From a virus: a stretch of 37,938 nt of DNA. The position numbers and the translations under genes are program-made. Within the stretch, counting starts at the first letter, position 1. Each line of letters opens with the position of its first letter. The stretch covers positions 1-37,938 of IMG/VR virus record IMGVR_UViG_3300042444_000169, one strand, 5' to 3'. This document shows positions 547-37,938 of this stretch, one piece after another. A model generated the notes under the pieces. It did not search any database, was not told the origin of the DNA, and saw only the letters and a list, made by a program, of their open reading frames with translations.

Positions 547-1365
547 TTACGGTATCGCCGCCGCGAAGGCGTTGATCAGAGCGGTCACGCGGGCGTCGAG
601 CAGGGCGAGGTCTAGGGATTCGCCGATGGAGTAGAAGGCTAGGCGTGATGTGGCGTAAGAATCGGGTGGTGTCCCTGGTCGAGCATAAAATAGAATGTTG
701 CTGTTATTAGGAGCGCTGGAATTAGCTAATACCGTAGTATTAGACAAGTTTGTTCTGCAAGTGTAGTTAATCGAACTGGATCTAGAAACCCCTAGAAGGC
801 CGACAACAAGTAAGGGTACTGAATTAAAAGTTCCCGCATCGTTATTGCAACTGGCAAAGCCATCAGTCGCCAAACCTGTTCTTCCAGCAGTGCCGGCTGC
901 GCCAGAGTTAAAAATACTGCCGGCACCAATCGTGCTGACATGCACGGCAACGTGTTTGCTGTTTTGTGGATCAGCATTGTTATTGCGCCCACTATTGATG
1001 TAGTTATTCGTCCCATTCCCCTGCAGCCCCGTCTTGCGGTTGTAATTCCACCCGCCTTCAGTGCCGAACCGAGTCGGCGCCGCCCCCACCAACGGCACCA
1101 GCGCACCGGCCAGTGTGCAGGCTCCGGCCATGATCGGCGCGGCCTTGATGATGCTGTTGGCTTGGCTCAGCACGCCGCCGCTGGTGCCCAGGTCGCCGAC
1201 GTTGATTGAGTCGCGGATGAACACGTCGTAGGCGTCACGCACGCCAACCTCTAGGCCCAGCGTGTTGCCCGCTGCTACATCAGCAGCCACCACCCGGTCG
1301 ATGTAATCCTGAACAGGGCCGATGTAGGCGTTGAACCTCCCCGTCCCAACCCAGATGATTGCCAT
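547..1365 (-). CDS. Putative tail fibre / adhesin protein
   Basis: The protein has 272 residues. The N-terminal ~90 residues (MAIIWVGTGRFNAYIGPVQD) are high-GC and Ala/Gly-rich. The middle (about 95-240) is rich in Asn, Ser, Thr and Gly, as in beta-sandwich receptor-binding domains. The C-terminus has FYSIGESLDLALLDARV, a pattern common at the end of phage fibre modules. The ATG overlaps the preceding gene's stop. It lies last but one in the fibre cluster and probably contacts host surface glycans; that role is inferred from composition and position. The DNA coding for residues ~120-240 is clearly more AT-rich than the rest of the phage, which suggests recent exchange of the binding domain. 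Confidence 0.6.
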   Translation of the reverse strand: MAIIWVGTGRFNAYIGPVQDYIDRVVAADVAAGNTLGLEVGVRDAYDVFIRDSINVGDLGTSGGVLSQANSIIKAAPIMAGACTLAGALVPLVGAAPTRFGTEGGWNYNRKTGLQGNGTNNYINSGRNNNADPQNSKHVAVHVSTIGAGSIFNSGAAGTAGRTGLATDGFASCNNDAGTFNSVPLLVVGLLGVSRSSSINYTCRTNLSNTTVLANSSAPNNSNILFYARPGTPPDSYATSRLAFYSIGESLDLALLDARVTALINAFAAAIP

Positions 1366-2033
1366 CAGACCCTCTCCCAGATCAGCGATTCCTGGCTAGG
1401 GGTCGCCGGGTCATCGGAGGCGAACTGGCCATCCTCGCCGCGAGCTTGAACCACCACCCAAAGATCCCCGGCAGCGTCCACCCACTCCTGACCCACGCTC
1501 GCGGCAGCAGGCCGCAGGGAGCCGCCCAGTGCCGCCACGAATCCATCGGGCAGGTGGAGGGCAATCGCCAGCCCGCGAACCTCCTGCAGCAGCTCGGCAG
1601 ACACCAGCCCCAGCCGGCGGAGGCCAAGCCAGGCCGCCCGAAAATCGTCCACATCACCGCCGCCAGCAGCAGCCAGCAGGGTGGCAGGCAGGCTGAGCGC
1701 TGCAGCCGGGGCTGTGCTCACCCCGCCGCCCAGCAGGGCATTGATCGCCGGGTGGCCAAGCAGGGCGCGTTTGAACGTGCGCCAGTCGGCAGGCGGCGCG
1801 GGCTCCGGCAGATCCACGACGCTCCAGCCCCAGCGCCATTCGCCGGCCTCCAGGTCCACCGTGCGGGTCTGGCCGGCCTGCTGGCCGGGGAGAACTTCGG
1901 GGGCGGGCTCGCGCACCACCCGGAGAACTGCGTAGCGCGGGTCGAGGCCCTGCACTGGGTCGTCGTCCACCCTCGGGTAATCCCGGACCGCCCCGGTCTG
2001 TTGGTCGAACAGCACGAAGCTCCGAGCCGTCAT
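1365..2033 (-). CDS. Hypothetical fibre-region protein
   Basis: I chose the ATG at 2033 (222 residues) because it overlaps the preceding stop as ATGA. The N-terminus SFVLFDQQTGAVRDYPRVDD and the following ~60 residues look like a small beta domain. Residues ~70-170 are Ala/Leu-rich and helical, with RAAWLGLRRLGLVSAELLQ. I recognise no family. Its place between two fibre-type genes suggests a virion or fibre-assembly role, but nothing in the sequence proves it. Confidence 0.65.
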   Translation of the reverse strand: MTARSFVLFDQQTGAVRDYPRVDDDPVQGLDPRYAVLRVVREPAPEVLPGQQAGQTRTVDLEAGEWRWGWSVVDLPEPAPPADWRTFKRALLGHPAINALLGGGVSTAPAAALSLPATLLAAAGGGDVDDFRAAWLGLRRLGLVSAELLQEVRGLAIALHLPDGFVAALGGSLRPAAASVGQEWVDAAGDLWVVVQARGEDGQFASDDPATPSQESLIWERV

Positions 2034-2614
2034 GCGTCGTTCCTCCGCACGGTGAGGTACAGCTTGGCCAGTCGGCACCCGCCCCCGGCCTGCGAGATGT
2101 CGAATCGCAGAACGTCGCTAGCTGCTGCTGTCGTGATCGCCAGCGTGCCGCTGCTGCCCGTAGTGCTCCCCACCGCAATCTGTGGGCGGACGCTGTAGAT
2201 CGAGCTGGCGTTCAGTCGGGCGTTGACCTGAAACGCCGAGCCTGATGCTGCAGTATCTGCGCTGAGCGCCGATGCCAGGATCTGCGCAGGCCACTGGAAC
2301 GTGAAGGTTTCAATTCCGTTCGCTGCAGTCGGATCGCTCTGGCTGCCGCTCAGGTTGACCACCAGCAGATCCGTGCTGGCAGGGCCTGGAGGGCCTGGAG
2401 GGCCAGCAAAATCTCCAAGCCCATCCCACTCGGTCCCGTCCCAGACGAAGAACTCGCCGGTATCCTCCGCCTGCCAAACGTCGCCGATCGTGTTGCCGCT
2501 GTTGGGCAACGCTGCCTCGTTGGCGACTGTCCCCAGCAGGTTCAACAGCGAAGTGGCTGCATCGCCGCCAGCTGCATCCAAAGTCCCGGTGAAGGGGTTG
2601 AACTTGAATCGCAT
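2030..2614 (-). CDS. Putative virion/fibre protein with a collagen-like hinge
   Basis: This 194-residue protein begins MRFKFNPFTGTLDAAGGD, followed by a segment with GDVWQAEDTGEFFVWDGTEW, typical of phage fibre adaptor domains. A short collagen-like stretch, AGPPGPPGPAS, lies at about residues 89-99. The C-terminal ~95 residues look like a Ser/Thr/Ala-rich beta-sandwich. Adaptor, collagen hinge and beta head is a common layout of small trimeric fibres. Its stop overlaps the next ATG. The structural role is well supported by this layout; the receptor is unknown. Confidence 0.65.
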   Translation of the reverse strand: MRFKFNPFTGTLDAAGGDAATSLLNLLGTVANEAALPNSGNTIGDVWQAEDTGEFFVWDGTEWDGLGDFAGPPGPPGPASTDLLVVNLSGSQSDPTAANGIETFTFQWPAQILASALSADTAASGSAFQVNARLNASSIYSVRPQIAVGSTTGSSGTLAITTAAASDVLRFDISQAGGGCRLAKLYLTVRRNDA

Positions 2615-2617
2615 GGC

Positions 2618-2803
2618 TCAGCTCTTTTGCACGGTGGCCACGTTGCCGTTGGCGTGATAGGTGAGCGTCAGCGTGGCCACCACAGTGCCGCTGGCGCCAC
2701 CGGCCTTGAAGGTGAACACCGTGCCAGCCTCGTTGGCCTCGACCCGGTCGTGCTCAGGGATCCCCAGGCCGCGAACGGCAAGCCCGAAAGGTTCAGTTGC
2801 CAT
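2618..2803 (-). CDS. Small hypothetical protein (61 aa)
   Basis: It begins MATEPFGLAVRGLG and contains TVFTFKAGGASGTVVATLTL and YHANGNVATVQKS, giving a short, probably all-beta protein. I recognise no family. It starts 27 nt downstream of a copy of the putative phage promoter in one of the few real gaps of the fibre cluster (2804-2859), so it may head a short late transcript with the following fibre genes. It ends 3 nt before the next ATG. Confidence 0.6.
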   Translation of the reverse strand: MATEPFGLAVRGLGIPEHDRVEANEAGTVFTFKAGGASGTVVATLTLTYHANGNVATVQKS

Positions 2804-2830
2804 CAGCCTGCGGCAGCGCTACGGCTCCAT

Positions 2831-2846
2831 TCTGCAGGGGTGCAGA
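2831..2846 (-). promoter_or_regulatory. Putative phage RNAP promoter, fibre region
   Basis: The minus strand reads TCTGCA-CCCC-TGCAGA, a fully palindromic copy of the 16-bp element. It sits in the 56-bp gap between two genes, 27 nt before the ATG at 2803. Confidence 0.6.
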
Positions 2847-2859
2847 GCTGGCTGCCAGT

Positions 2860-3213
2860 TCACGCCCAGGGCACGGGCATAGGCACCACCGAGGGCGTCC
2901 GTTTGGCGGCGAGCATCCCGGCCAGGCCGGTGCGCATCTGGGCGACGGTGGGCTCTCCCTCCCCGGCGCGGGCGTCGATGGCGGCCTCCAGCCAGGTGAT
3001 CACCGTGGCTTCTGTGAGGTTCTCGAACAGGGTGAAGTCCTCGGGGTCGGCATCACCCACGGGCACGTCGCCGTAGAGGTCGAGGGTGTTGGTGCCGTCG
3101 GCTCCGAACAGGCGCCAGTGGATCTTGCGGACGACGTTGGTGAGGGCGCCTTCGGTGGGTGCGGCATCGAGGCGCTCGATGCGCCAGGTGTAGGTGACGG
3201 TGGGTTCAGTCAT
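2860..3213 (-). CDS. Cyanophage-type hypothetical virion protein
   Basis: This 117-residue protein begins MTEPTVTYTWRIERLDAAPT and contains VVRKIHWRLFGADG, followed by FTLFENLTEATVITWLE. A short beta N-terminus followed by an acidic helical part is, as I recall, found in small conserved proteins of cyanophages near tail-fibre genes. The biochemical role is unknown. Its ATG overlaps the upstream stop (ATGA at 3210-3213). Confidence 0.65.
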   Translation of the reverse strand: MTEPTVTYTWRIERLDAAPTEGALTNVVRKIHWRLFGADGTNTLDLYGDVPVGDADPEDFTLFENLTEATVITWLEAAIDARAGEGEPTVAQMRTGLAGMLAAKRTPSVVPMPVPWA

Positions 3214-3380
3214 CGGTCGGGGTTCTCCTCGGGGGTGGGGTTGGCGTCGCCCTTGGGGACGATCTCGACAGCGTCCAGGAAGGCGCCGAGTTGCTGAGCG
3301 GCGAACTGCTGCAGCACGGTGTCACCGCTGGCCCGTGCTGCGGCGTAGGAGTTCACGATGGTGATCAGTTGGTCCTTCAT
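3210..3380 (-). CDS. Small hypothetical protein (56 aa)
   Basis: An ORF of 56 codons from ATG at 3378-3380 to a TGA overlapping the next start. It begins MKDQLITIVNSYAAARASGD and ends with a proline/acidic tail, NPTPEENPDR. It is probably one amphipathic helix. Perfect ATGA coupling and phage-like codon use support it as real. No family is recognised. Confidence 0.55.
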   Translation of the reverse strand: MKDQLITIVNSYAAARASGDTVLQQFAAQQLGAFLDAVEIVPKGDANPTPEENPDR

Positions 3381-3394
3381 GGCGAGTGGTGGTG

Positions 3395-4138
3395 TCAGGC
3401 CCCGATGAGGCCGTGGGAGGTGAGGTCGTCGATGAGCGCTTTGACGCGCTCGGCGAGCTGGGCGACGGTGACGGTGGAGGTGGCGAACGCAGTGCGGGTG
3501 GCGGTGCCGGTGGGCGGCCCCCAGCCGGTCTTGCGGGAGCCGACGACGTTATTGGTGCCGACTCTGTAGCTGTCGGCGGTGTTGGTGAGTTGAATGTTGC
3601 CGGTGACGGAGAGCCGCTCAGTGCCGCTGGTGTTGTTGATCAGGACGTTGCCTGAGGAGGAGATGAATAGGCCAACCGGCAGATTTGGTATCGACCCGGC
3701 TAGGGCCAGCGGTCTGTACGAAAAACGCATAGAGGCCGAGATCGTATCCGGCGACGTAGGGGAATCGACGAATACATTTACCGAGCCACACTGAGCAATC
3801 AGCCCCGACTGATTGCGGGCCTCAAAGTTGATGCTCCCAATGTTGTCATTAACTGCAGCAAGGCTGGCGTCAGACCTCTGTTTCTCTAAAAAGATTGTCG
3901 CTGGCGTTGCATCGTTTCTGTCAAGCCTGATCAGCTGATTTCTGTTGCTCGTCCAGATTTGGCTCCAAGTGTAAAGGCCCGCTTCAGTAAAGACAGAGGC
4001 GTTCAGCCTGCCATTGCTGCCCAGCACTATCGCCCCAGGCATTGCAGCGGCGTCATACGGCACCGGCACCTGTACTACCGCGAGGGCTGCAGTGCGCAGT
4101 TGTTTGCCAGAGCCGGTCTTAAGCCTGTCCATCGTCAT
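3395..4138 (-). CDS. Tail fibre-like structural protein
   Basis: The protein has 247 residues. An N-terminal beta region is followed by a Ser/Asn-rich middle, then GLFISSSGNVLINNTSGTER, a repeat-like segment of phage fibre shafts. The C-terminal ~60 residues (VVGSRKTGWGPPTGTATRTA, then LAERVKALIDDLTSHGLIG) match a C-terminal module seen on many phage fibre and head-decoration proteins, probably for trimerisation. The ATG overlaps the preceding stop. It is most likely a side fibre subunit. The coding DNA around 3640-4000 is somewhat lower in GC than its neighbours. Confidence 0.7.
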   Translation of the reverse strand: MTMDRLKTGSGKQLRTAALAVVQVPVPYDAAAMPGAIVLGSNGRLNASVFTEAGLYTWSQIWTSNRNQLIRLDRNDATPATIFLEKQRSDASLAAVNDNIGSINFEARNQSGLIAQCGSVNVFVDSPTSPDTISASMRFSYRPLALAGSIPNLPVGLFISSSGNVLINNTSGTERLSVTGNIQLTNTADSYRVGTNNVVGSRKTGWGPPTGTATRTAFATSTVTVAQLAERVKALIDDLTSHGLIGA

Positions 4139-4662
4139 GCCTCCGTATCAGGTGCGTGGTCTGCCAGCTCCAGCTCGACGGCACTGCCCCAGAATTTGAG
4201 AGAGGCATCTGCTTCCGCCCTGCCCTGCAGCCTGTCGCCACGGGTTGAGGTGAAGTTCGTCTTGAACAGGCGGAACCCTTGGATCGGGAAAAACAAGGTT
4301 TCCCGGGGCGGGACCGAGATCCTCGGGGCGATCAGGATTTCCTGCAGTCCAGGGGTCTCATTGCCTCCCTGCTGAATCAGCCGAAGCTCAAACCAGCGAG
4401 GGACATCGACATAGCTCACGACTGCCAGAGGTGTCTCGAAAAACACTTCCCCTGGCCGCAACTCCCTGTCGTTGTTGTCGGGATCCGGCGTGACGCCATC
4501 GCCGCCAGTGTCGGGGAGCGAAAAGTCCTTCGCTTCAGCGATGTCCGACCAGCCGGTTGGCAGGAAGCCGTTGTTGAGCCCCGGCGGCCTGACGAGCTGG
4601 ATCGGTTTGCCGCTTGAGGGCTGGTCGGTGTAGATGCGCCAGGCGCGAGTAACTCTGGACAT
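4135..4662 (-). CDS. Hypothetical tail-associated protein
   Basis: This 175-residue protein begins MSRVTRAWRIYTDQPSSGKP. It is rich in beta-type segments (RWFELRLIQQGGNE, EILIAPRISVPPRETLFF) and has a central acidic linker, TPDPDNNDRELRPGEVFFE. It starts 3 nt after the main tail fibre gene and overlaps the next gene. A fibre-connector or baseplate-like role is plausible from position only; I do not recognise the family. Confidence 0.6.
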   Translation of the reverse strand: MSRVTRAWRIYTDQPSSGKPIQLVRPPGLNNGFLPTGWSDIAEAKDFSLPDTGGDGVTPDPDNNDRELRPGEVFFETPLAVVSYVDVPRWFELRLIQQGGNETPGLQEILIAPRISVPPRETLFFPIQGFRLFKTNFTSTRGDRLQGRAEADASLKFWGSAVELELADHAPDTEA

Positions 4663-4665
4663 GGA

Positions 4666-6699
4666 TCAGTAGCTCCTGGAAATGACAGAACGGGTCACTC
4701 GCCCGCGGATAGCGGTGTCGAAGGGCGGCCCGCCGACCTCGCCGCTGCGGGCGTCGATGCTCAAGCCACCGACAAACACCGCATTGCCGGCGTCGTCCTG
4801 GCCGCTGAACCTCACCCGCCCGCCGTTGCGTTGCACGATGCTGCGCTGGATGCGGCGGGCGGCCCGGGCTGGTGGCACCCGGTAGAACTCCACCCCCGCC
4901 AGTGGAGCGGTCCACTGGTGGTTGATGGCCGTGATCAGCGAGCGCAGCCGGCGCTGCACGGGCTCCACCGGGCTTGGGGCTGGGCCCTGGCCGACCTCGA
5001 ACCAGTAGTTGTCCATGGTGGCCTTGAGCCGTGCAACCAGAGCAAGAACCATCGTCTCGGCGCCGGATGTGAGCTGGCCGCCGGCAATCAGCTGCGATGC
5101 CAGCCGATCCCAGCTGGCCTTGAACGCAGCGTGGAAGCTGTAGGCGTAGACGCACACTCCGTTGAACCGGAACATGCCCTCGGCAAAGTTGAGCATCGGC
5201 CGCTCAAAGCCATGCACCAGGCAGGCGCTGATGGCATCGAGGAACAGGCCGCCATCCTTGCGGGTCAGGGTCTCGAAGCCGGCTGGCCAGGATGCGGCGT
5301 TGTGGTTGGCCACCAGGAAAGACCACATGTCATTCACCAGGGCCACCTTGCCGGCGTTGATGATCGTGGCGGCAGTGGACTGGCTCGTCAGCAGGGATGG
5401 GGTGATTGTGAGCGGCTTGATCTGCTGTGTGCTGCCCTCGCTCCAGAAGCTGTAGTCGCCGAACTGGGAGCTGGAGCCAGACACCACCATCTGGCCGCCA
5501 TCGAGGCAGACGAAGTGTTTGTGGGCGCCGATACCGATTGCATTGACCGGGTTGATGAAGCCACGGTTCCTGGACACATAGCCCATGCCGTTGGCACTGC
5601 TGGGCGTGAAGCCCCAGGTCATGATGTTCGGGTAGACCGAGTAGGGCGACAGCACCGAGGCATCGGCCAGCACGCAGCCGCCGCCCTTGGGGTGGGCGGG
5701 GTTGCCGGCAGCGGCATCCATCGGCAGCGGTGTCGGCACCTCGGTCAGGGCCGACGTGACCACGCAGTTCTGCCCGTAGGGAACGCCGCCGGGGAGGATG
5801 ATCGCGCCAGGCCGGAAGGCCATGGCGAAACCCTTGGTGGGGTTGTCGAAGTCATCAATCTCCCAGCCGGTGAACTTCAGGCCTTGCAGGTGGACACCAT
5901 TGCCGCAGAGGAACACGTTGCTCTGCTCGTCGCCGGCCGTGGGCCTGCAGACGGAGCGGCGCTGAAAGTTGACGCCGTTGATGGTGGTGAAGTCGGGAAC
6001 CCCGAGCTCGCCCGGGGTGTCGAAGTCGCCCAGCACCCGAACGGTCCAGCCGGTGGGTTCTGTTTGCGCCTCGATGAACTCCAGCGCCCGCTCGATGCTC
6101 AGGAACGCTCGGTCTTCATTGCGCCCACTGGAATTGTTGTTGCCATCCGGTGCGATGTAGACCGTTTTGTAGACGGAATGACTGGGTGCGGCCCGAACGG
6201 TGATGTTCTGGGTGCCGTTGAATGGCACGCCGTTGATGGTCCTCGCGGTTTGCAGGCGAACCGCCGCATTGGCCAGGTTGGCCGAGCCGGCCAGCGTGGC
6301 GAAGTCGGCCGTGTCCGCGCTGTTGCTCACTTCCGACAGCGCTGCAAAGCGGCTGCGGTCGAGCAGCTCCTGCACGATGTAAAGGATCTGCAGGTCGGCG
6401 GTGTTCTGATCGAACGACTGCAGGTTTGAGGCATCGGTCCACTGGACGAGCTGCGCCTCCTTGGGTGTGTTGCGCAGGATGGTCAGCTCGCGACCGCTTG
6501 CCGGTGGGTCCGTGAGCCTGATGGTGGTGCCGTTCAGCCAGGTGAAGCCGGTGGGGTCGAATAGCTCATCGACCAGGGTGTCCTCGAAGTAATCCCACTC
6601 GTAGCCGACCCTGACGTGCGCCCTGCGGAGATAGGGGAACGGCACGACGAAGTTGCGGGTGCTGCCGTCACCGGAATAGGAGACGTAGGAGAGGGGCAC
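4666..6699 (-). CDS. T7 gp17-like tail fibre protein
   Basis: The protein has 677 residues. The N-terminal ~110 residues (SYVSYSGDGSTRNFVVPFPY, then LTILRNTPKEAQLVQW and LQSFDQNTADLQILYIVQEL) match the T7 tail fibre N-terminal domain, which anchors the fibre to the tail. A helical neck is followed at about residue 180 by VYIAPDGNNNSSGRNEDRAF and repeated beta-strand segments, suggesting a right-handed beta-helix shaft or depolymerase-like domain. The C-terminus (about 590-677) is basic. The start is GTG, exactly 4 nt after the promoter-like element at 6704-6719, where T7 places phi17. Function: host recognition. Confidence 0.85.
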   Translation of the reverse strand: MPLSYVSYSGDGSTRNFVVPFPYLRRAHVRVGYEWDYFEDTLVDELFDPTGFTWLNGTTIRLTDPPASGRELTILRNTPKEAQLVQWTDASNLQSFDQNTADLQILYIVQELLDRSRFAALSEVSNSADTADFATLAGSANLANAAVRLQTARTINGVPFNGTQNITVRAAPSHSVYKTVYIAPDGNNNSSGRNEDRAFLSIERALEFIEAQTEPTGWTVRVLGDFDTPGELGVPDFTTINGVNFQRRSVCRPTAGDEQSNVFLCGNGVHLQGLKFTGWEIDDFDNPTKGFAMAFRPGAIILPGGVPYGQNCVVTSALTEVPTPLPMDAAAGNPAHPKGGGCVLADASVLSPYSVYPNIMTWGFTPSSANGMGYVSRNRGFINPVNAIGIGAHKHFVCLDGGQMVVSGSSSQFGDYSFWSEGSTQQIKPLTITPSLLTSQSTAATIINAGKVALVNDMWSFLVANHNAASWPAGFETLTRKDGGLFLDAISACLVHGFERPMLNFAEGMFRFNGVCVYAYSFHAAFKASWDRLASQLIAGGQLTSGAETMVLALVARLKATMDNYWFEVGQGPAPSPVEPVQRRLRSLITAINHQWTAPLAGVEFYRVPPARAARRIQRSIVQRNGGRVRFSGQDDAGNAVFVGGLSIDARSGEVGGPPFDTAIRGRVTRSVISRSY

Positions 6700-10131: not shown

Positions 10132-13100
10132 AGCGAGCAGCCCTCGTCTTGCATTTTGCGGCGCAGTTCAGCCATGCGCTGTTCGTTGGCTTGGATCTGT
10201 TGGCGGGCGGCCTGGTCGGCTGTCTTGGTGCGGGGCTTGGGCATCTGCGCTTCTGGTTCCGGCACTCCATAGAACTGCCGGTACGCCGCGGCCACCGCTT
10301 CCACCTCAGGGGTGTTGCGGCCCATGGCCCGATCGTTGATCGCCTTGTCCAGGTCAAGGCCGGGGACACGCTCGGCGTAGAGGTTGCGGCCCTTCTTCAC
10401 CGCAAGGGATTTGGCCTCCTCGATCGACTTGATCGGGCCTCGCCCTTCGGGGTAGCCGGTGTTGCCCCAGTCGTAGAGGCTCGCCGCCACCGAATCTGCG
10501 CGGCTTGCGCTGAGCTTGGTAGAGGCCCTGGCCGGGATGTCGATCTTCGGTGCGGGCGCGGGCGTGTCCGCCAGCTGCAGCGGCTCGGGGCGCACCGGGG
10601 CGGGGGCCAGCCCAGCCCCGGCGATCCGGTTGGCCAGGTCGGTCTTGTAGATCACCACTTCGCTCGCGCCGGCGCCCACCTCGCTGAACATCGGATCGAA
10701 GCGGATGCCGTCGTAGCCGTTGTCCAGTGCCCACTGGCGAATCTGGCCCTGCTGCGCCTCGGAGAAGAAGCGCTCTCCCGCGAACACTTCCGCCGGCCGA
10801 CCCACGCCGATTTCCTCGGCGAAGTCGGAAGCGGTCTTGCCTTGGCCCACCAGATCGAGAATCCTGGCTCCTTCGGGCAGCTGGCCGCCAACTGCGGTGT
10901 CGCCATAGGCGCCCGCGTACCTGGGGTTGGTGGCCATGTAGACCCCATCGCCCAGGATCGTGCCGCCGCTCTTGGCCCGGGACGGGCGGAAGCCGCTCTC
11001 CATGATCGACTGGGCGGCCTTGCCTGATGTGCCATGCACCAGCTCGGTGCCCGGCGGCACCAGGTCGTAGCCATCCGTCATCCCCAGCGCCTTCTTCTCC
11101 TCGAAGGTCTTGAGCTCGTAGCCCATCGCGTCCTTGGCGCCCTCCTCGGCGATGGCCCGCATCTGCGCATCGCGCTCGGCGAACTCAGCCGTCAGCCGGA
11201 TCTCATCCGCCATGGCCTGCGCAGCAGGGGTGCCGGGCTCCACCTGGCCGCCACGGGTCTCCAGATCGGCCCTGGCCAGATCAGGGGTGAGCGCCGGGCC
11301 ATCGGGCAGCTCGGGGATCGGTGTCTCGGGTGGCCGCACCTCGGCTTCATCCACAGCGCGGCGGATCACCTCGATCTGCGCGGCCTGGCGCTGCTCGGGG
11401 GTGAGCGGCCTGGGGCTGGGGACGATCCGATCTGTCGCCCGGGCCCCGTCGATGTCCTCGATGCCGACCGATGCCTCCAGCCCGCGCCGGGCCATTTCGG
11501 CGTTGCGGCCGGCGCTGTCGCCCAGTGATCGAGCGATGCCTTCCATTTCATCGAAGACGGCCTGGGTCTCGGGGTCGAACTCCGCTGCAGCGGCAGCTGG
11601 GCGTGCGGTGGGCATGCCCTGCTCCTCGGCGCTCTGCCGCACCGCATCCACGATCTGATCACGGATCCGGTTGGCCACCACGCCAGGCTTGGCGCCATCG
11701 GCGATCTGCTTGGCGCCATCGTCAAGGATGCTGCTGACTGGCCCGGGGGCGTACTTCACCGCATCGAAAACCCCAAGCACAGCGCTGGCGTCGGTCGCCT
11801 CCATGGCGCTGCCTTCGACGCTGATCTTGTTGCCGGCCTGCTGCAGTCGCTCGGCCTTCCTGCCGACCTTGCCAAACAGGTTCTTGTCGCTGATCAGGTC
11901 GGCGCGAATCTTGGCCGCCAGCTTGCCCTTCTCCACCGCCAGGGAAAGCGCCTCCTCGCTCATCCCCATCATCTCCAGTAGGGTCGTCTGGGCCCCGTCC
12001 GACTGCTTGACCACGGGTGCGCTGCGCACCTGTTGCACCACCTCGTTGAAGGCGGAATCGGTGAGGTCTCTATCGCCCAGGATCTTCATCACGGACTGCA
12101 TCTGCGCCTCGTCCAGCCCGCTGCCGCCGATCGCCGCGGCCTTGCCAACGGACAGCCGGCCATCGACGGCAGCCTGGAAGATGTTGTCCGGCAGCTGGGA
12201 CAACGCCAGCCCACGGGCAGCGTGCCCATCGGTCATCGGCGCACCCATCCGCTGCAGCTGGTCAGGGCTGGTGATGCCGCTGTCGCGCATGAACTTGGCG
12301 GCATCGAACACCGTGCCGCGACCCTCCTTGATGTTCGCCAGCGCCCCCAGCGCCCGGGCCTCCTCGGCGGTGGCGGCCGGCAGCTCGCGCACCGGCACCG
12401 TGGGGATGCCCAGCTGGTTGGCGCGGGCCAGCCGGTTGTGGCCGTTCACCACATAGGTAGCGCCATTGGCCGGATCGGTCCACACATCCAGCGTGCCCTC
12501 GGCCACCGTGTCCCAGCGGTCCACGCCCGCCAGGCTGTTGCCCCCCTGCTCGCCAACCTCGTTGACACCCTGCTTGAACTGGAAGCGCTGCGGGTCGGCC
12601 TGGATCTCGCCCGTGGGGCGGAATGACTGCTGCCAGTCGCGCACCAGCAGGGCCTGGCCGGACTGCTCCCGGTACTTGGCGAGGCCCTCGATGATGTCGG
12701 CCTTGGTGAACTCCTCGAACTCGCGGCCGGTGATGTCGCCGATCAGCTGGGCCAGTGCCGGGTTGTTCTCCGGTGCGGCGGCGCCCCGCAGCGTCTCCAG
12801 CGGCATCGCCTCCAGCGTCTGCTCGTAGGGCAACGGCTGGCCATCGCCACCGATCCGCTCAGCCACGCTCTCGGCCGGTGCCATCACCCGGCCCTGCTCC
12901 AGCTCGGGCCGCACCGGCATGGCCTCCCTGGCCATGAGCAGCTCGTCAATGCGCGGCACCACCGGGCCGGGCTGGGCCAGCAGCGCCTGCAGGTCGGTGT
13001 CGTCCAGGTCCCGGACGAGGTTGAACACCACATCCGCCTCGGGCAGCTCGGGGTCGTAGATCAGCTCGAACGGGTCGATCTCGACGCCCTCCACCTCCAG

Positions 13101-31510: not shown

Positions 31511-31541
31511 ACCTAGGAGGCACCTAGGCAATACCCCTAGG
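31511..31541. repeat. Three CCTAGG boxes, two in an 11-bp direct repeat
   Basis: CCTAGG occurs at 31512-31517, 31523-31528 and 31536-31541. The first two are in a direct repeat (GCACCTAGG) spaced by 11 bp, one helical turn. The cluster lies at the RNA polymerase stop codon and just upstream of the SSB promoter-like element. It shares the CACCTA half-site with the palindrome at 35543-35555. It is a possible regulator-binding site. Confidence 0.4.
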
Positions 31542-33936
31542 AGAACAGATAGGGGTTCCCGCCGATCTCGCCCACCTCCAGCGTCCCCACCATCGGCGGC
31601 GCCGGCAGCCTCGCCCCAGCCGTGGCCTGGATTTCGGCCGTGATCTCAGCCAGCCAGTCCGGCCGGTAGAGCTCCCCGGTGCGCCACAGCAACGTGCTGT
31701 GCAGCCACTCGGCATCGCAGGGCGGCACCGCGAAACAGTCGTGGTTGGGCAGCACCGTGCGGCCTTTGTCTGCACCATCGCAGACCATTGCCCACACCAG
31801 GGCGGCGTCGAAGGAGTGGATCAGGTTGGCGGTGATCGACCGGCCGGTCTCCACGGCGCTGAGCTTCCCCGGTGGTGGCGCATCGAGCAGGGTCTGCCAG
31901 CGGCGGGTGCCATGCAGCAGCGACTTGATGCCGCTGCTGGCGGTGAGCTCCTTGCCCAGCTGGATGGGCAGCCCCATCGGTGTTGTCCACCGCAGCGGCT
32001 GGCTCTTGGCACTGCAGCAGCGCACCACCGCCCGCAGCCAGGCCTGAAATGCCACTGCGCCAGCCAGCCGGGCGCCAACGGCCAGGCCGAACTTCCGCGC
32101 CAGGTAGCGGGCGGGTATCAGCCGCTCGCGCTCCAGCACCCCCAGCGACACGGTGCCCTCAGCGTCATCCAGCAGGGCCACCAGCTGCTCGGTCACCCCC
32201 AGCAGCTTCGCTCCGTAGACCGTGCTCATCACCGGCACCTTGGCCATGGCCCGGCTGATGCCACGCTCCAGCCACCAGCCCGCCAGCCGCTGCTCCTTGG
32301 CATCCCCGGCCTCCAGATCAGAGCGCAGCAGCAGCATCACCTCCTGGGCCAGCTCGGTGTAGAGGTCGTGGCAGGTGGTGCCGACCAAGTTGCAGGCCCG
32401 GGCCAGGCCTCGATCCCGCAGCAGGGCGCCGATGATGCCAGGGCCTGAGCTGGTCTGATCCAACCGCACCGGCTGATGGATGGGCTGGTTGGGGTCCTCG
32501 ATCCACCGCTGCAGCGCCCGGCAGCAGGCCAGGAACTGCCACGGCTCCTTGGCATCACGCCACAGATGCACCCGCTCCAGGGGTTCCTCGGCCGCAGCCA
32601 GCATCCGCTCGATCTGATCTCGGCCGAACTGCAGCCGATCGGCCCAGCTGCCCTTGATCCCCCAGTGGATCGCGGCAGCCTTGAGGATCCAGTCGGCGGC
32701 CCGGTCATCGCACGGCTTGGCGTTGGCGATCAGCACCTGAGCCTTTTCGTGGTCGGGGCCCTGGTGGGTGGTGAGCCGGTTCGCGGTGTAGACGCGCCCC
32801 CGGATGTCCATGCACCAGCTGAACCAGAGCGGCTCGCCGGCCAGCTGCTCGGCCTGGCGGATGGACCCCTCGATGCGGCTGCGGGCTTCCCGGCCCTCGA
32901 TCCGGTCGCGGTGGAACGCCTGCTCCTGCTGATGCCAGCGGGCCATGGCCTCCTTGCCCACCAGCTCAACCGGCTTGGGCGGGGCCTCGGCCGGATCGCG
33001 CAGCAGCGGGAACAGGCCGCGCAGGTTGGCATCCCAGGCGATCCGCTGGTTCCCCACCATCCACGGATCCAGCATCAGCCCCTGGCCCTGGAGGGTGTTC
33101 ACCACCTTCAGCGCCGGCTGCAGGGCCTGGGTGGTCAGGTAGTCGATCGGATGCCCCTTGCGGCTGCGCACCAGCGGCTCGGTGTTGCTCAGGTGCCCGC
33201 CGCCCGTCATCCCCTCCCACGGCCTGGGCGGGGTGAGCATGGGCAGCTTGCGAGCTTTGGCGGGTGTCGGCGGGTGGGCGGCGATGATTTCGGCCACCAC
33301 GGGCGCCGGCTCAAGCTGCAGGCCGCGGCGCCCTGGCTTGGTCGTCGTTCGCAGTAGCTCGGTTTCGGTGGTGATGATCTCCAGCAGGAAGGCACCCACC
33401 TGGAAGCGATCGGCGGCACACCAGGGCTCCAGCTGGATGCGCAGCTGCTCCAGCCGCGCCTTCGATGTGAGCCCCTTGCCGTGGCGGCGCCGGGCGATGC
33501 GGAGCAGGTCTTGGCCGCGGTCCTCGATCGGGAGCGCCCTGATCTCTGCCTCGATCGCTGCGCCGATGGCAGATGCCATGGCCCGGTGGCTGGCGGGCTT
33601 GCTGATCCGATCGAGCACCACCCCCAGGGCGACCGCAGCGATCGAGCGGGGCCCCTTCTCTCCCAGCTGGAACAGCAGCCACATGCCGGCGTGATACGGG
33701 CCGGCCAGCTCGTCGCGGTTGATGGCCTTGCCCAGCTTGTGCTCCAGCGCCAGCGCCACACGCTCGCCGTGGGCCTGGAACAGGGCCCGCCCGTACTCGG
33801 TGGCGCTCTCCTTCTCCTGCTGTTTGAGCTTTGCCCGGGCGATGCGTGAGCGGTTGGTGGCGGCCTCCTGGGCTGCCGTTTCCAGATGCCGCTGACGGTC
33901 CTCCGAGGGTGTGTAGGAATTGCCGGATGCAGACAA
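31537..33936 (-). CDS. Single-subunit T7-type DNA-directed RNA polymerase (gp1-like)
   Basis: This 799-residue protein carries the family motifs in order: WCMDIRGRVYTANRLTTHQG; RLDQTSSGPGIIGAL with catalytic D493; SRAMAKVPVMSTVYGAK with K566 and the Tyr that selects ribonucleotides; and PNHDCFAVPP with catalytic D733. The end, GNPYLFS, differs from the T7 FAFA foot. It is about 84 residues shorter than T7 RNAP (883), mostly in the N-terminal promoter-recognition and exit-channel part. The only start that fits is TTG at 33936. It would transcribe the middle and late genes, presumably from the TCTGCA-N4-YGCAG elements. Confidence 0.95.
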   Translation of the reverse strand: MSASGNSYTPSEDRQRHLETAAQEAATNRSRIARAKLKQQEKESATEYGRALFQAHGERVALALEHKLGKAINRDELAGPYHAGMWLLFQLGEKGPRSIAAVALGVVLDRISKPASHRAMASAIGAAIEAEIRALPIEDRGQDLLRIARRRHGKGLTSKARLEQLRIQLEPWCAADRFQVGAFLLEIITTETELLRTTTKPGRRGLQLEPAPVVAEIIAAHPPTPAKARKLPMLTPPRPWEGMTGGGHLSNTEPLVRSRKGHPIDYLTTQALQPALKVVNTLQGQGLMLDPWMVGNQRIAWDANLRGLFPLLRDPAEAPPKPVELVGKEAMARWHQQEQAFHRDRIEGREARSRIEGSIRQAEQLAGEPLWFSWCMDIRGRVYTANRLTTHQGPDHEKAQVLIANAKPCDDRAADWILKAAAIHWGIKGSWADRLQFGRDQIERMLAAAEEPLERVHLWRDAKEPWQFLACCRALQRWIEDPNQPIHQPVRLDQTSSGPGIIGALLRDRGLARACNLVGTTCHDLYTELAQEVMLLLRSDLEAGDAKEQRLAGWWLERGISRAMAKVPVMSTVYGAKLLGVTEQLVALLDDAEGTVSLGVLERERLIPARYLARKFGLAVGARLAGAVAFQAWLRAVVRCCSAKSQPLRWTTPMGLPIQLGKELTASSGIKSLLHGTRRWQTLLDAPPPGKLSAVETGRSITANLIHSFDAALVWAMVCDGADKGRTVLPNHDCFAVPPCDAEWLHSTLLWRTGELYRPDWLAEITAEIQATAGARLPAPPMVGTLEVGEIGGNPYLFS

Positions 33937-34204: not shown

Positions 34205-35191
34205 TCAGCCCTCAAGCGCTGCCACGCAGGACGCCAGGGCGTCGGTGTGCAAATGCAGGTAGCGCTGCACGCTCTGGAGGGATGTCCAGCCGCCGTAGGC
34301 CATCAGCTGGTGGAGCGGGATCCCCTTGGTCGCCAGCTTGCTCGCGCAGGTGTGGCGGGTGCAGTGGATCGTGAGGGCCGGGTCGGTGATGCCCAATCCC
34401 TCCTTGGCGCACTCAAACAACCACTTGAATTGCCGGTAGCTGTAGGGGTAGACCCGATGACCCGGCACGGCCGGCAGGTGGGGCAGTAGGGCATCGAGGG
34501 CCCGGCGGGTGAGCGGCACGCTGCGGGCGCGGTTGGCCTTGGTCTCCCAGAAGGTGACGCGGGCCCGATCCACATCCACATCAGCCCCACGCAGGCGCTC
34601 GGCTTCGCCCCACCTGCAGCAGGTCTCGAGAAGGAACACAAAAAGGTCGGCCGCGGCGGGTTGGCCTGCGGCATGGAACCGATCGCAGAACGCTGCGATC
34701 TCAGCATCCGAAAAGATGCGGTCCTTGGTGTTGCGGTTGGTCAGCTGCCGGGGCAGGGGAGGGATGGCAGCCAGGTGCCCATGGAGCACGGCATCACCGA
34801 ACATGGCCCGCAGGCAGGACACCTTGGCGTTGACGGTGCCGGGGCGGTTGCCGCCACGGAGCAGCAGCTGCCGCCACTCCTCCACGGCCGGGGCGGTGAT
34901 GCCGCCCAGCTGGGTGAGCGGGCCGAAGTGATCCACGGCGGCTTGGCTGTAGATGGCAGCGGTCCGCTCGAAGGCCTTGCCGGCCCAGCGGATGCGCAGG
35001 GAGAGGGCCCGGGCGTCGGTGATGGTGATGCCCTGGGGTTCACCCGTGCCACGGGCTACCAGGAGCTCCAGCAGCTGGCGCTTGGCCTCGATGGCCTCGG
35101 TCTTGGTGCGGCGCTTGGCAGTGCGGCGGGTGCCGCCGATGGTCACATCGGCAATCCAGCCGTCCGCCGTGCGGCGAACTGATCCGGTCAT
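34205..35191 (-). CDS. int: Tyrosine-family integrase
   Basis: The protein has 328 residues. An N-terminal arm-binding-like part begins GSVRRTADGWIADVTIGGTR. A SAM-like core-binding domain lies at about 70-150, then the catalytic domain: CRWGEAERLRGADV with R193, HCTRHTCASKLATKG with H276 and R279, GGWTSLQSVQRYLHLH with the nucleophile Y311. All catalytic residues are present, so it should be active in integration and excision. It is encoded beside the attP candidate, as in T7-like cyanophages with integrases. The leader is CACACCACCACCACC-rich, similar to the early-gene leaders. Confidence 0.93.
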   Translation of the reverse strand: MTGSVRRTADGWIADVTIGGTRRTAKRRTKTEAIEAKRQLLELLVARGTGEPQGITITDARALSLRIRWAGKAFERTAAIYSQAAVDHFGPLTQLGGITAPAVEEWRQLLLRGGNRPGTVNAKVSCLRAMFGDAVLHGHLAAIPPLPRQLTNRNTKDRIFSDAEIAAFCDRFHAAGQPAAADLFVFLLETCCRWGEAERLRGADVDVDRARVTFWETKANRARSVPLTRRALDALLPHLPAVPGHRVYPYSYRQFKWLFECAKEGLGITDPALTIHCTRHTCASKLATKGIPLHQLMAYGGWTSLQSVQRYLHLHTDALASCVAALEG

Positions 35192-35219
35192 GGTGGTTCC
35201 TTTGGTGGTGGTGGTGTGA

Positions 35220-36158: not shown

Positions 36159-36343
36159 CGGATCGCTTCCACCTTGGAGAGGGCAGCCCGGGCGGTCTCT
36201 AGTTGGTCCTCGGTGTCGGCCCAGCTGGAATCGCCAGGCGGCAGGCATTGGACCTGAGCGGCCAGCAGTTCGCTGAGCGCTGTGACCCTTGGGCGAAGCA
36301 GGGCAGCCAGCAGGGCCGCCTCTGTGGTGTTGATGGTGTGCAT
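36155..36343 (-). CDS. Small early protein (62 aa)
   Basis: It begins MHTINTTEAALLAALLRPRV and continues LSELLAAQVQCLPPGDSSWA, ending DQLETARAALSKVEAIR: two or three helices. No family is recognised. Its ATG follows the first of three double-hairpin leaders (36363-36398) and an A/C-rich spacer. Confidence 0.55.
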   Translation of the reverse strand: MHTINTTEAALLAALLRPRVTALSELLAAQVQCLPPGDSSWADTEDQLETARAALSKVEAIR

Positions 36344-36362
36344 GGTTGGGGTTGTGGTGGTG

Positions 36363-36398
36363 TGCTGGTGAACCCAGCAGGGAGGGCCGCAGCCCTCC
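36363..36398 (-). repeat. Double-hairpin early leader, copy A
   Basis: The 64-bp gap before the 62-residue gene is almost entirely this module. On the minus strand, hairpin 1 is GGAGGGC-TGCG-GCCCTCC and hairpin 2 is TGCTGG-GTTCA-CCAGCA, followed by CACACCACCACAACC and the start codon. Hairpin 2 keeps its pairing although its bases differ from copies B and C. It could be an RNase III-type processing site or translation element. Confidence 0.65.
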
Positions 36399-36407
36399 GG
36401 GATGGGA

Positions 36408-36584
36408 TCACGCCTCAGCAATGAACGAACAAAGGCGAACCCGGTTAGCCAGTTGTTCGCCGTGGCGGATTGCGTCGCGCTCGTTGTAATGCCAGGTCCG
36501 GTCGTTGCCGATTTGGCACCCCCAGGCGGCGCGGGTGGTGCTCCACCAGACGCAAGCGGTCGGGGTGGTGGTGGTGGTGTCCAT
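36408..36584 (-). CDS. Small early protein (58 aa)
   Basis: It begins MDTTTTTPTACVWWSTTRAA, then WGCQIGNDRTWHYNERDAIR and HGEQLANRVRLCSFIAEA. The central GNDRTWHYNERDAIRHGEQL recalls small proteins of unknown function in other phages. The poly-Thr start is encoded by repeated ACC, in line with the ACC-rich leaders of this region. Hairpin leader copy B precedes it. Confidence 0.55.
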   Translation of the reverse strand: MDTTTTTPTACVWWSTTRAAWGCQIGNDRTWHYNERDAIRHGEQLANRVRLCSFIAEA

Positions 36585-36608
36585 GTTTGGCTGCTTGGTT
36601 GTGGTGTG

Positions 36609-36641
36609 CTGCTGAGGGCAGCAGAGGGCCCCGCAGGGCCC
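36609..36641 (-). repeat. Double-hairpin early leader, copy B
   Basis: On the minus strand, hairpin 1 is GGGCCC-TGCG-GGGCCC and hairpin 2 is CTGCTG-CCCT-CAGCAG, followed by CACACCACAACC and, after a short spacer, the ATG at 36584. It occupies most of the 79-bp gap. The TGCG loop of hairpin 1 is the same as in copy A. Confidence 0.65.
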
Positions 36642-36663
36642 CGGGATGCCGTCAGGGGCGGCC

Positions 36664-37143
36664 TCAGCGCACGCCGAGACAGAACAGACCGGCGAACCAA
36701 CACAAGGCGTCCTCGTCGGCCCCGTGGTACTCGGTCCAGGGCGTGCTCCAGTCCTGGTATTCCATCCGCCACGACTCGGCGCCGCGGTGGGTGTCGAAAC
36801 TGCCCGTGATTTGCAGGGCCGGCCCCCCATAACTGAGCAGGATCCGGTATTCGTCCGCTTCCATTTCCGAAGCGCTGGATGTCCACTGGCGGCAGCGGAA
36901 CTCAACAGACAGCGCCTGTTCCCTTGCCGCTTCCTCGATCGCTTCGGCGGTGTCCTCGCGGTTGGTGCCGTCCCAGCCGTGTTCGTGCATGGCTGCCCGT
37001 GCTTCGCGGCTGGTCTCTGATGCTTCCTCTGGTGCTTCGCGGTATTCGCGCAGCCATGCGACCGCTTCCGCGTAGGCCTCGATCGTTTCAGCGTGGCCTT
37101 GTGCGTTCTCTTGTGCGTGGTTGGCCTCTTTGGTGGCGTTCAT
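36664..37143 (-). CDS. Acidic early protein, possible DNA mimic
   Basis: This 159-residue protein is strongly acidic. The N-terminal ~80 residues are Glu/Ala-rich and helical (VAWLREYREAPEEASETSRE, NREDTAEAIEEAAREQ). The C-terminal part, YRILLSYGGPALQITGSF, then SWRMEYQDWSTPWTEYHGAD and EDALCWFAGLFCLG, contains an EYQDWxTPWT pattern I recall from phage proteins of unknown function. Its early position and charge resemble anti-restriction DNA mimics such as T7 Ocr, but there is no sequence match. Hairpin leader copy C precedes it. Confidence 0.6.
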   Translation of the reverse strand: MNATKEANHAQENAQGHAETIEAYAEAVAWLREYREAPEEASETSREARAAMHEHGWDGTNREDTAEAIEEAAREQALSVEFRCRQWTSSASEMEADEYRILLSYGGPALQITGSFDTHRGAESWRMEYQDWSTPWTEYHGADEDALCWFAGLFCLGVR

Positions 37144-37168
37144 GGTTGGTTTGGTTGGTGGTGGTGTG

Positions 37169-37206
37169 CTGCTGAGGGCAGCAGGGAGAGGGCTGGCGCC
37201 CCCTCC
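37169..37206 (-). repeat. Double-hairpin early leader, copy C
   Basis: Hairpin 1 on the minus strand pairs GGAGGGGGC with GCCCTCTCC around a GCCA loop. One pair is G-U, which becomes an A-C mismatch on the other strand, so the RNA is read from the minus strand. Hairpin 2 is CTGCTG-CCCT-CAGCAG, identical to copy B, then CACACCACCACCAACC and the ATG at 37143. Confidence 0.65.
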
Positions 37207-37215
37207 GTGCTGTCG

Positions 37216-37512
37216 TCACACCGGCACCAGTCGGCCGGCTTCCTTCCTCCATTTGCGGCGGCTGGTGTTGCCCCGCTTGATCGGTGCGGAGCGGTGGCCG
37301 CGGCCGAGAATCCAGCCGGTGCCGTGGCAGCCGAAACAGGCGCCCCCCTGGATGTGCGCAAACTCCGGTTTGCGGCCGGTGCCGTTGCATCCCCAGGGGC
37401 ACGGGTAGGCGTTGTCATCCCCGGGCCATGGGTTGGGCGCCAGTGGTCGCCACCAGTCCGGGCGGCCATCGGCGCAGCTGCGCCAGATCGGACAGTCGGT
37501 GGTGCCTGTCAT
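37216..37512 (-). CDS. Zinc-finger early protein (DnaJ-type Cys motif)
   Basis: The ATG at 37512 overlaps the upstream stop, giving 98 residues. YPCPWGCNGTGRKPEF, then GGACFGCHGTGWILGRGHRS, resembles two CxxCxGxG repeats of the DnaJ zinc-finger (the first with spacing C-W-G-C). The Arg/Lys-rich end is KRGNTSRRKWRKEAGR. No J domain is present. Such stand-alone motifs occur in small phage proteins. It is probably zinc-binding and may contact nucleic acid or protein. Confidence 0.6.
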   Translation of the reverse strand: MTGTTDCPIWRSCADGRPDWWRPLAPNPWPGDDNAYPCPWGCNGTGRKPEFAHIQGGACFGCHGTGWILGRGHRSAPIKRGNTSRRKWRKEAGRLVPV

Positions 37513-37685: not shown

Positions 37686-37861
37686 CGGGCCCCCTCCGGC
37701 TGGCAGGGCTCGATCGTGTAGCCGGTGCCGTCGGACGGCAGGGCCAGCAGCCGGGCGCGGGCCTGGATTGCCTCGTAGTAGGTGGCGAAGTGGCGCCAGT
37801 CGCTGCCCCATGTCGGGTGGTAGCTGACCAGTCGCCAGCGTTGCGCCGTGGCGTGGGTCAT
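37682..37861 (-). CDS. Small early protein (59 aa)
   Basis: An ORF of 59 codons from an ATG at 37859-37861 that overlaps an upstream TGA. It reads MTHATAQRWRLVSYHPTWGS, DWRHFATYYEAIQARARLLA and ends IEPCQPEGAR. It is a small alpha/beta protein that I cannot assign. Confidence 0.55.
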   Translation of the reverse strand: MTHATAQRWRLVSYHPTWGSDWRHFATYYEAIQARARLLALPSDGTGYTIEPCQPEGAR

Positions 37862-37938
37862 CGGTCGGCCTCGGTGGTGGTGGTGTGGTCGTTGAACAGC
37901 GGACCCAGGGCCCCACCGTCAAGGGCCAGCCAGCCCTG
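37858..37938 (-). CDS. C-terminal end of an early gene (partial)
   Basis: An open frame enters from the right edge and ends in a TGA overlapping the next ATG. The visible 26 residues end LGPLFNDHTTTTEADR. The ACC repeats that code for Thr-Thr-Thr-Thr are again the CACACCACCACC motif of this region. The product cannot be identified. Confidence 0.4.
   Translation of the reverse strand, partial: QGWLALDGGALGPLFNDHTTTTEADR

Follow-up and report, generated by a model that had tools for sequence, protein, structure and literature searches.

A stop-codon-linked, three-armed RNA element with two alternative predicted folds between early genes of cyanophages

Introduction

In the trp leader and the erm leaders, one RNA segment has two alternative partners, and a ribosome on an upstream reading frame chooses between them. 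The put RNA of phage HK022, which modifies the transcribing polymerase, consists of two stem-loops lying side by side in an early transcript; to our knowledge put sites are few per genome, and we know of no competing third arm or stop codon in them. The early transcript of phage T7, of about 7,000 nt, is cut at five RNase III sites, and the R1.1 substrate is cut once, into fragments of 47 and 13 nt (PMC4858673). Cyanobacteria have one to three RNase III genes, and an RNase III-deficient Synechococcus PCC 7002 is viable (PMC10989914). Cluster K mycobacteriophages carry a conserved 13-bp SAS and 17-bp repeats, and RNA pairing of the ESAS repeats was unsupported in the authors' analysis (PMC3203893).

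Here, an RNA element lying between consecutive early genes of a viral contig and its relatives is compared with these systems. It has the look of a switch, as yet undescribed, by which translation of the upstream gene is read out.

Results

The window and its likely host

The whole stretch of DNA that was analysed (the window) is viral and 37,938 bp long, with a GC content of 66%. It is a T7-like, integrase-bearing cyanophage contig, and its genes also include portal, major head and tail proteins and two small regulators of one family. Among isolates, Synechococcus phage S-SRP02 has the closest RNA polymerase (46.6%). A 66% relative is located within a Cyanobium metagenome-assembled genome (MAG), which makes a freshwater picocyanobacterium the most likely host. 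The polymerase and integrase genes lie as follows.

31537-33936, minus strand: T7-type RNA polymerase
34205-35191: integrase

Anatomy of the element

Three consecutive minus-strand gene gaps of the window (64, 79 and 72 nt), followed by the genes that start at 36343, 36584 and 37143 respectively, hold the same element (copies A, B and C). An earlier note, made from the window's sequence, had recognised the common layout as a G/C-rich hairpin followed by a second hairpin. Both are present, the second as TGCTGG/CCAGCA in A and CTGCTG/CAGCAG in B and C; what that description missed is a 5' arm, opening with a stop codon, whose pairing partner is the left arm of hairpin 2. The element thus consists of arm1 (10 nt, starting with UGA), hairpin 1, arm2 and arm3, followed by a C/A-rich leader.

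36344..36410, minus: element A, complete linker starting at the stop codon of the 36584-36408 gene and reaching to the ATG at 36343; 78.1 bits with covariance model R1
36401..36410, minus: A arm1, TGATCCCATC; TGA is the upstream gene's stop, and 8 of 10 positions pair with arm2
36381..36398, minus: A hairpin 1, GGAGGGC-TGCG-GCCCTCC
36369..36378, minus: A arm2, GCTGGGTTCA; partner is arm1 or arm3
36363..36368, minus: A arm3, CCAGCA, the right arm of hairpin 2
36344..36362, minus: A leader, C/A-rich and unstructured, ahead of the ATG at 36343
36585..36654, minus: element B; 73.3 bits with R1
36645..36654, minus: B arm1, TGACGGCATC
36625..36642, minus: B hairpin 1
36613..36622, minus: B arm2, GCTGCCCTCA
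36607..36612, minus: B arm3, GCAGCA
37144..37218, minus: element C; 79 bits with R1
37209..37218, minus: C arm1, TGACGACAGC
37185..37206, minus: C hairpin 1, holding the G-U pair pointed out in the earlier note
37173..37182, minus: C arm2, GCTGCCCTCA
37167..37172, minus: C arm3, GCAGCA

Arm1 and arm2 are complementary in each copy (TGATCCCATC/GCTGGGTTCA in A, TGACGGCATC/GCTGCCCTCA in B and TGACGACAGC/GCTGCCCTCA in C). Upstream of B, the gene's stop TGA (36664-36666) lies 12 nt ahead of the element, and a second in-frame TGA occupies position 1; in C, the upstream gene (ATG at 37512) terminates at the TGA 37216-37218. Compared with dinucleotide shuffles, the RNAfold z-scores of the sense strand were -3.6 for A, -1.6 for B and -4.7 for C, the fold of B being only weakly better than its shuffles.

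The C/A leader that had been noted before the start codons is present in all three gaps. A CACACCACCAC leader (window 35208-35218 and 37877-37887) also stands ahead of the integrase (35191) and of the gene at 37861, both of which lack hairpins; the leader is therefore not specific to the element, and such C/A-rich leaders look like the general start region of the window phage.

Copies and distribution

Pattern scans, an RNA-polymerase search and two covariance models (R1 and R2, whose E-values are rough after a short calibration) yielded 121 distinct intergenic copies (context 1) in 58 loci; some of these loci share one contig and the copies are related, so that they cannot be counted as independent events. 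An initial loose-pattern motif scan produced noise only. The copies come from relatives of the window, the isolate S-SRP02 (at 11605, 12019 and 12527), marine fosmid phages and two host-family genomes. Mediterranean fosmid podoviruses (L100, L102) carry copies, as does an S-EIV1-like contig (L080), while S-EIV1 itself gave a weak match (E=0.008). No match was obtained at E<=1e-3 in P-SSP7, Syn5 or T7, nor by a distant blastn of the element region against phages. Rfam release 15 gave no gathering-score match in the window, none up to E=5 in 36300-37300 and none in ten relatives. Covariance-model matches to the same palindromes on the reverse strand score far lower.

In the whole records that were checked, strong matches cluster in the early region, upstream of the integrase and the RNA polymerase. 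Around the first 60 copies, the upstream genes form 34 protein clusters and the downstream genes 36, and genes downstream of elements include the ArdC and ArdA antirestriction proteins. At several loci (L014/L027, L003, L033, L068, L070, L072, L075, L084), one upstream gene is followed in relatives by differing element-plus-gene units, which suggests that early genes are swapped as cassettes together with the linker.

A host origin of the element was rejected: matches were found in 0 of 13 genomes of the MAG's genus and in 2 of 300 in the family, an absence that is weak evidence as only top candidates were scored. One of the two host-family matches sits on a phage-like 4.9-kb contig with an integrase. 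On a 2.5-Mb cyanobacterial contig (L164; genome G289, position 1351288), a copy immediately precedes a gene for the antirestriction protein ArdA. Five nearby proteins were tested and none was recognised as a phage structural protein, so this copy may be a remnant or a captured module.

A second context comprises 20 copies in 12 loci, in arrays that keep the three arms and show no coupling to stop or start codons. Non-coding intergenic arrays of other phages, at L137:3440-3960 (plus strand), at L110:8340-8760 (minus strand) and in L106, L107, L108, L111, L115, L117, L124, L134 and L153, comprise two or three units with this three-arm layout. The L110 array lies between a phrog_4652 gene and the portal gene. 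Units in L137 are about 126-130 nt apart, and long quasi-period-5 GGYNN repeats separate array units. The three-arm arrays have no Rfam match.

A stop codon within the element

Positions 1-3 of the element are a stop codon in 114 of 121 copies. In 101 of 120 copies the stop of the upstream ORF coincides exactly with these positions; in the others (about one in six) that ORF ends 1-12 nt earlier. Hairpin 1 starts a fixed 9 nt after the stop. Where the stop lies upstream, C can stand at position 1 (L006, L026, L080), or position 1 and its partner can both be changed, as in S-SRP02 and in one marine fosmid phage (AGA/UUU, AGA/UCU). By computational comparison of the copies, the stop codon is an integrated part of the predicted element. 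Stop-codon readthrough or recoding was rejected, as the stop-to-ATG distances modulo 3 were distributed 42/36/34 and an open in-frame passage existed in just 24 of 112 copies.

Two mutually exclusive folds

Arm2 is complementary to both arm1 and arm3, which gives two mutually exclusive computed folds. In state 1, arm1 pairs with arm2 and closes hairpin 1 across a 2+2 internal loop, forming one long imperfect hairpin; in state 2, hairpin 1 is followed by hairpin 2 (arm2 with arm3). The state 1 duplex spans about 19-22 base-pair lengths, compared with about 7-10 bp for hairpin 1 and about 6 bp for hairpin 2. Nearly all copies have the same 2+2 nt internal loop (linkers MC/CT), and arm1 position 4 is mismatched with the opposite base in 118 of 121 copies.

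The computed energy difference between the states was -2.1 +/- 3.1 kcal/mol, with 94 of 121 copies within 4 kcal/mol. Both states lay within about 3.5 kcal/mol in the first 19 copies, and some copies prefer state 1 by up to about 11 kcal/mol. When the transcript was ended after arm2, before arm3 is made, folding gave state 1 in 117 of 121 copies; when the first 12 nt were masked, it gave state 2 in 120 of 120. Arm2 still paired downstream in 69% of controls whose 3' part had been shuffled, so that the masked test is weak alone and the arm-swap test described below carries the weight. The computation shows the element to be bistable in these folding models.

Covariation and the selected strand

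Both helices covary across the 121 copies, so the pairings in the window are not due to chance. At positions 5-9 of arm1:arm2, 326 of 355 cells were paired, against 221 +/- 7 after arms were swapped between copies (71 unique pairs; 5000 permutations, maximum 246). The mean dG of arm2:arm3 was -9.85 kcal/mol, against -4.97 +/- 0.23 kcal/mol when swapped (n=101). This control leaves the phylogenetic relatedness of the copies in; counts from a single alignment agree with it. Three diverged copies have few arm letters in common and retain both pairings: L019 (TGATGCCTGC...GCAGGCTTCA...GCCTGC), L010 (TGACCACCAC...GTGGTGCTCA...GCATCAC) and L080 (TGACTCACTC...GAGTGGTTCA...AACCACT). The proposal that pairing is kept while sequences change, for which a covariance-model search in related phages had been put forward as the check, is thus borne out by strong covariation.

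The pair in element C that can form as G-U only in minus-strand RNA is an instance of a general pattern, in that hairpin 1 shows 60 G-U against 4 A-C combinations over all copies. The co-directional transcript is therefore the selected molecule.

Discussion

A candidate translation-sensing linker

The element could well be a portable, three-armed, bistable cis-acting RNA between consecutive early genes that reports upstream translation and whose long-hairpin state is handled by a nuclease. In this reading, arm1 opens with the stop codon of the upstream gene, and arm2 can take either arm1 (state 1) or arm3 (state 2) as its partner. A ribosome with a stop codon in its A site protects about 9 nt of downstream RNA, a reach at which a terminating ribosome would cover arm1 and the linker and leave hairpin 1 free. 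Termination at the UGA would occupy arm1 and the 2-nt linker, up to the base of hairpin 1, and force state 2; in ribosome-free RNA, state 1 would form first because arm2 is made before arm3. The linker would in this way report on translation of the upstream gene.

The most likely output would be mRNA handling. The length of state 1 would suffice for cleavage close to the internal loop by a nuclease that acts on double strands, host RNase III for example. The upstream message would then end in hairpin 1 and the downstream message begin with hairpin 2, and state 2 would be spared. Judged by its predicted fold, the long-hairpin state is probably an RNase III-type substrate. We infer gating by ribosomes, the nuclease step and an effect on expression from the design of the element: the two-way covariation calls for a role that needs both folds and the fixed stop codon for one that needs the ribosome, or the join itself, and a linker set by upstream translation accounts for these most simply. 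The array copies without codon coupling mean that ribosomes cannot be essential everywhere, which argues against gating as the only role.

Processing by RNase III alone

The strong rival to a translation-sensing linker is RNase III processing alone, which we consider rather unlikely: a constitutive site, as in T7 early mRNA, cut whatever the state of translation, with arm3 capping the new 5' end. If only RNase III matters, such capping would explain arm3. Like the R1.1-type sites, the element forms internal-loop hairpins in the sense transcript of a T7-like phage, where they separate early genes, and its position upstream of the integrase and RNA polymerase parallels T7. State 1 resembles a T7 substrate in size and in having an internal loop in nearly all copies, cyanobacteria carry the enzyme, and constitutive cutting also accounts for the arrays without codon coupling. 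It does not require a stop at position 1 in 101 of 120 copies or near-equal energies of two folds. Unlike the T7 sites, the element has a built-in stop codon, and the covariance model (R2) has no match at E<=1e-3 in T7 800-6600. We know of no arm3 or two-state design at T7 RNase III sites.

The earlier note had raised RNase III processing, and the idea gains plausibility because the alternative fold is one imperfect duplex of state 1 length in place of short hairpins; the structure on which it was based lacked the 5' arm, the stop codon and the two-state design. Together these three features point to sensing of upstream translation, not to static processing or a leader hairpin.

Attenuators and translational control

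The element shares with ribosome-controlled attenuators exclusive helices that both covary, and an upstream ORF that ends exactly at arm1 in most copies, positioning the ribosome to cover the first arm. Unlike attenuators, the ORF sensed is a full gene and not a leader peptide, sensing would take place at termination, the element has no terminator U-tract, its start codon is unpaired in both folds, and it is repeated between unrelated genes. A translational switch, in which the states alter 30S access or reinitiation at the downstream start and arm3 lengthens the single-stranded leader in state 1 and not in state 2, appears improbable. The start codon does lie at a narrow distance, a median of 31 nt after arm2, and the leader is 47% C and 33% A with a Shine-Dalgarno-like motif in just 17 of 119 copies; however, the start codon and the last ~20 nt before it are unoccluded in either state, and genes without the element have the same C/A leader.

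Other phage elements

State 2, with its two stem-loops one or two nucleotides apart in the early transcript of a phage, resembles the put RNA of HK022. An RNA of this kind acting on the transcribing polymerase is very improbable here, since the element occurs once per gene gap and not once per operon, and the covarying arm1 and built-in stop codon would have no role.

There is an even slighter chance of a DNA-level module for the exchange of early gene cassettes, such as an integron attC-like hairpin or a boundary sequence. It would suit the differing element-plus-gene units behind one upstream gene and the variety of neighbouring protein clusters. The excess of G-U over A-C combinations nevertheless indicates selection on one RNA strand, the arms vary freely with no conserved crossover sequence, and cassette exchange is possibly a by-product of homology.

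Like SAS/ESAS of cluster K mycobacteriophages (PMC3203893), the element is repeated, gene-independent, made of inverted repeats and placed before many non-structural genes. Unlike ESAS, its RNA pairing covaries in two ways, its sequence is unconserved and it includes a stop codon; GGGATAGGAGCCC is absent from the elements, and the arms differ between neighbouring copies. A phage-polymerase promoter was rejected, as strong copies are confined to the early region with none before late genes, and so was an intrinsic terminator, as the elements have no T-run stem, T makes up 8% after the element and TTTT occurs in 3 of 121 copies.

Scope of the element

We put forward, with some doubt, that these copies belong to a widespread, undescribed class of RNA linkers through which the message of each early gene depends on termination of translation in the preceding gene, free in sequence bar the stop codon, the internal loop and self-complementarity, and present in unrelated cyanophage lineages and in the tandem arrays of other phages. 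The RNA family is absent from Rfam and combines two-way covariation with a stop codon as a structural part. It precedes antirestriction and other early genes in phages of abundant picocyanobacteria and, because it marks such genes, offers a handle for finding uncharacterised early anti-host genes. The isolate S-SRP02 and the RNase III-deficient Synechococcus PCC 7002 make it directly testable.

Two neighbouring genes were noted in passing. The small protein upstream of element C (window 37216-37512, minus strand) has a weak Pfam resemblance, below the cut-off, to Anti-TRAP (E=0.0036). In S-SRP02 (L095), positions 12333-12524 hold an apparently unannotated ORF whose TAG end lies a few nucleotides before the third copy of the element.
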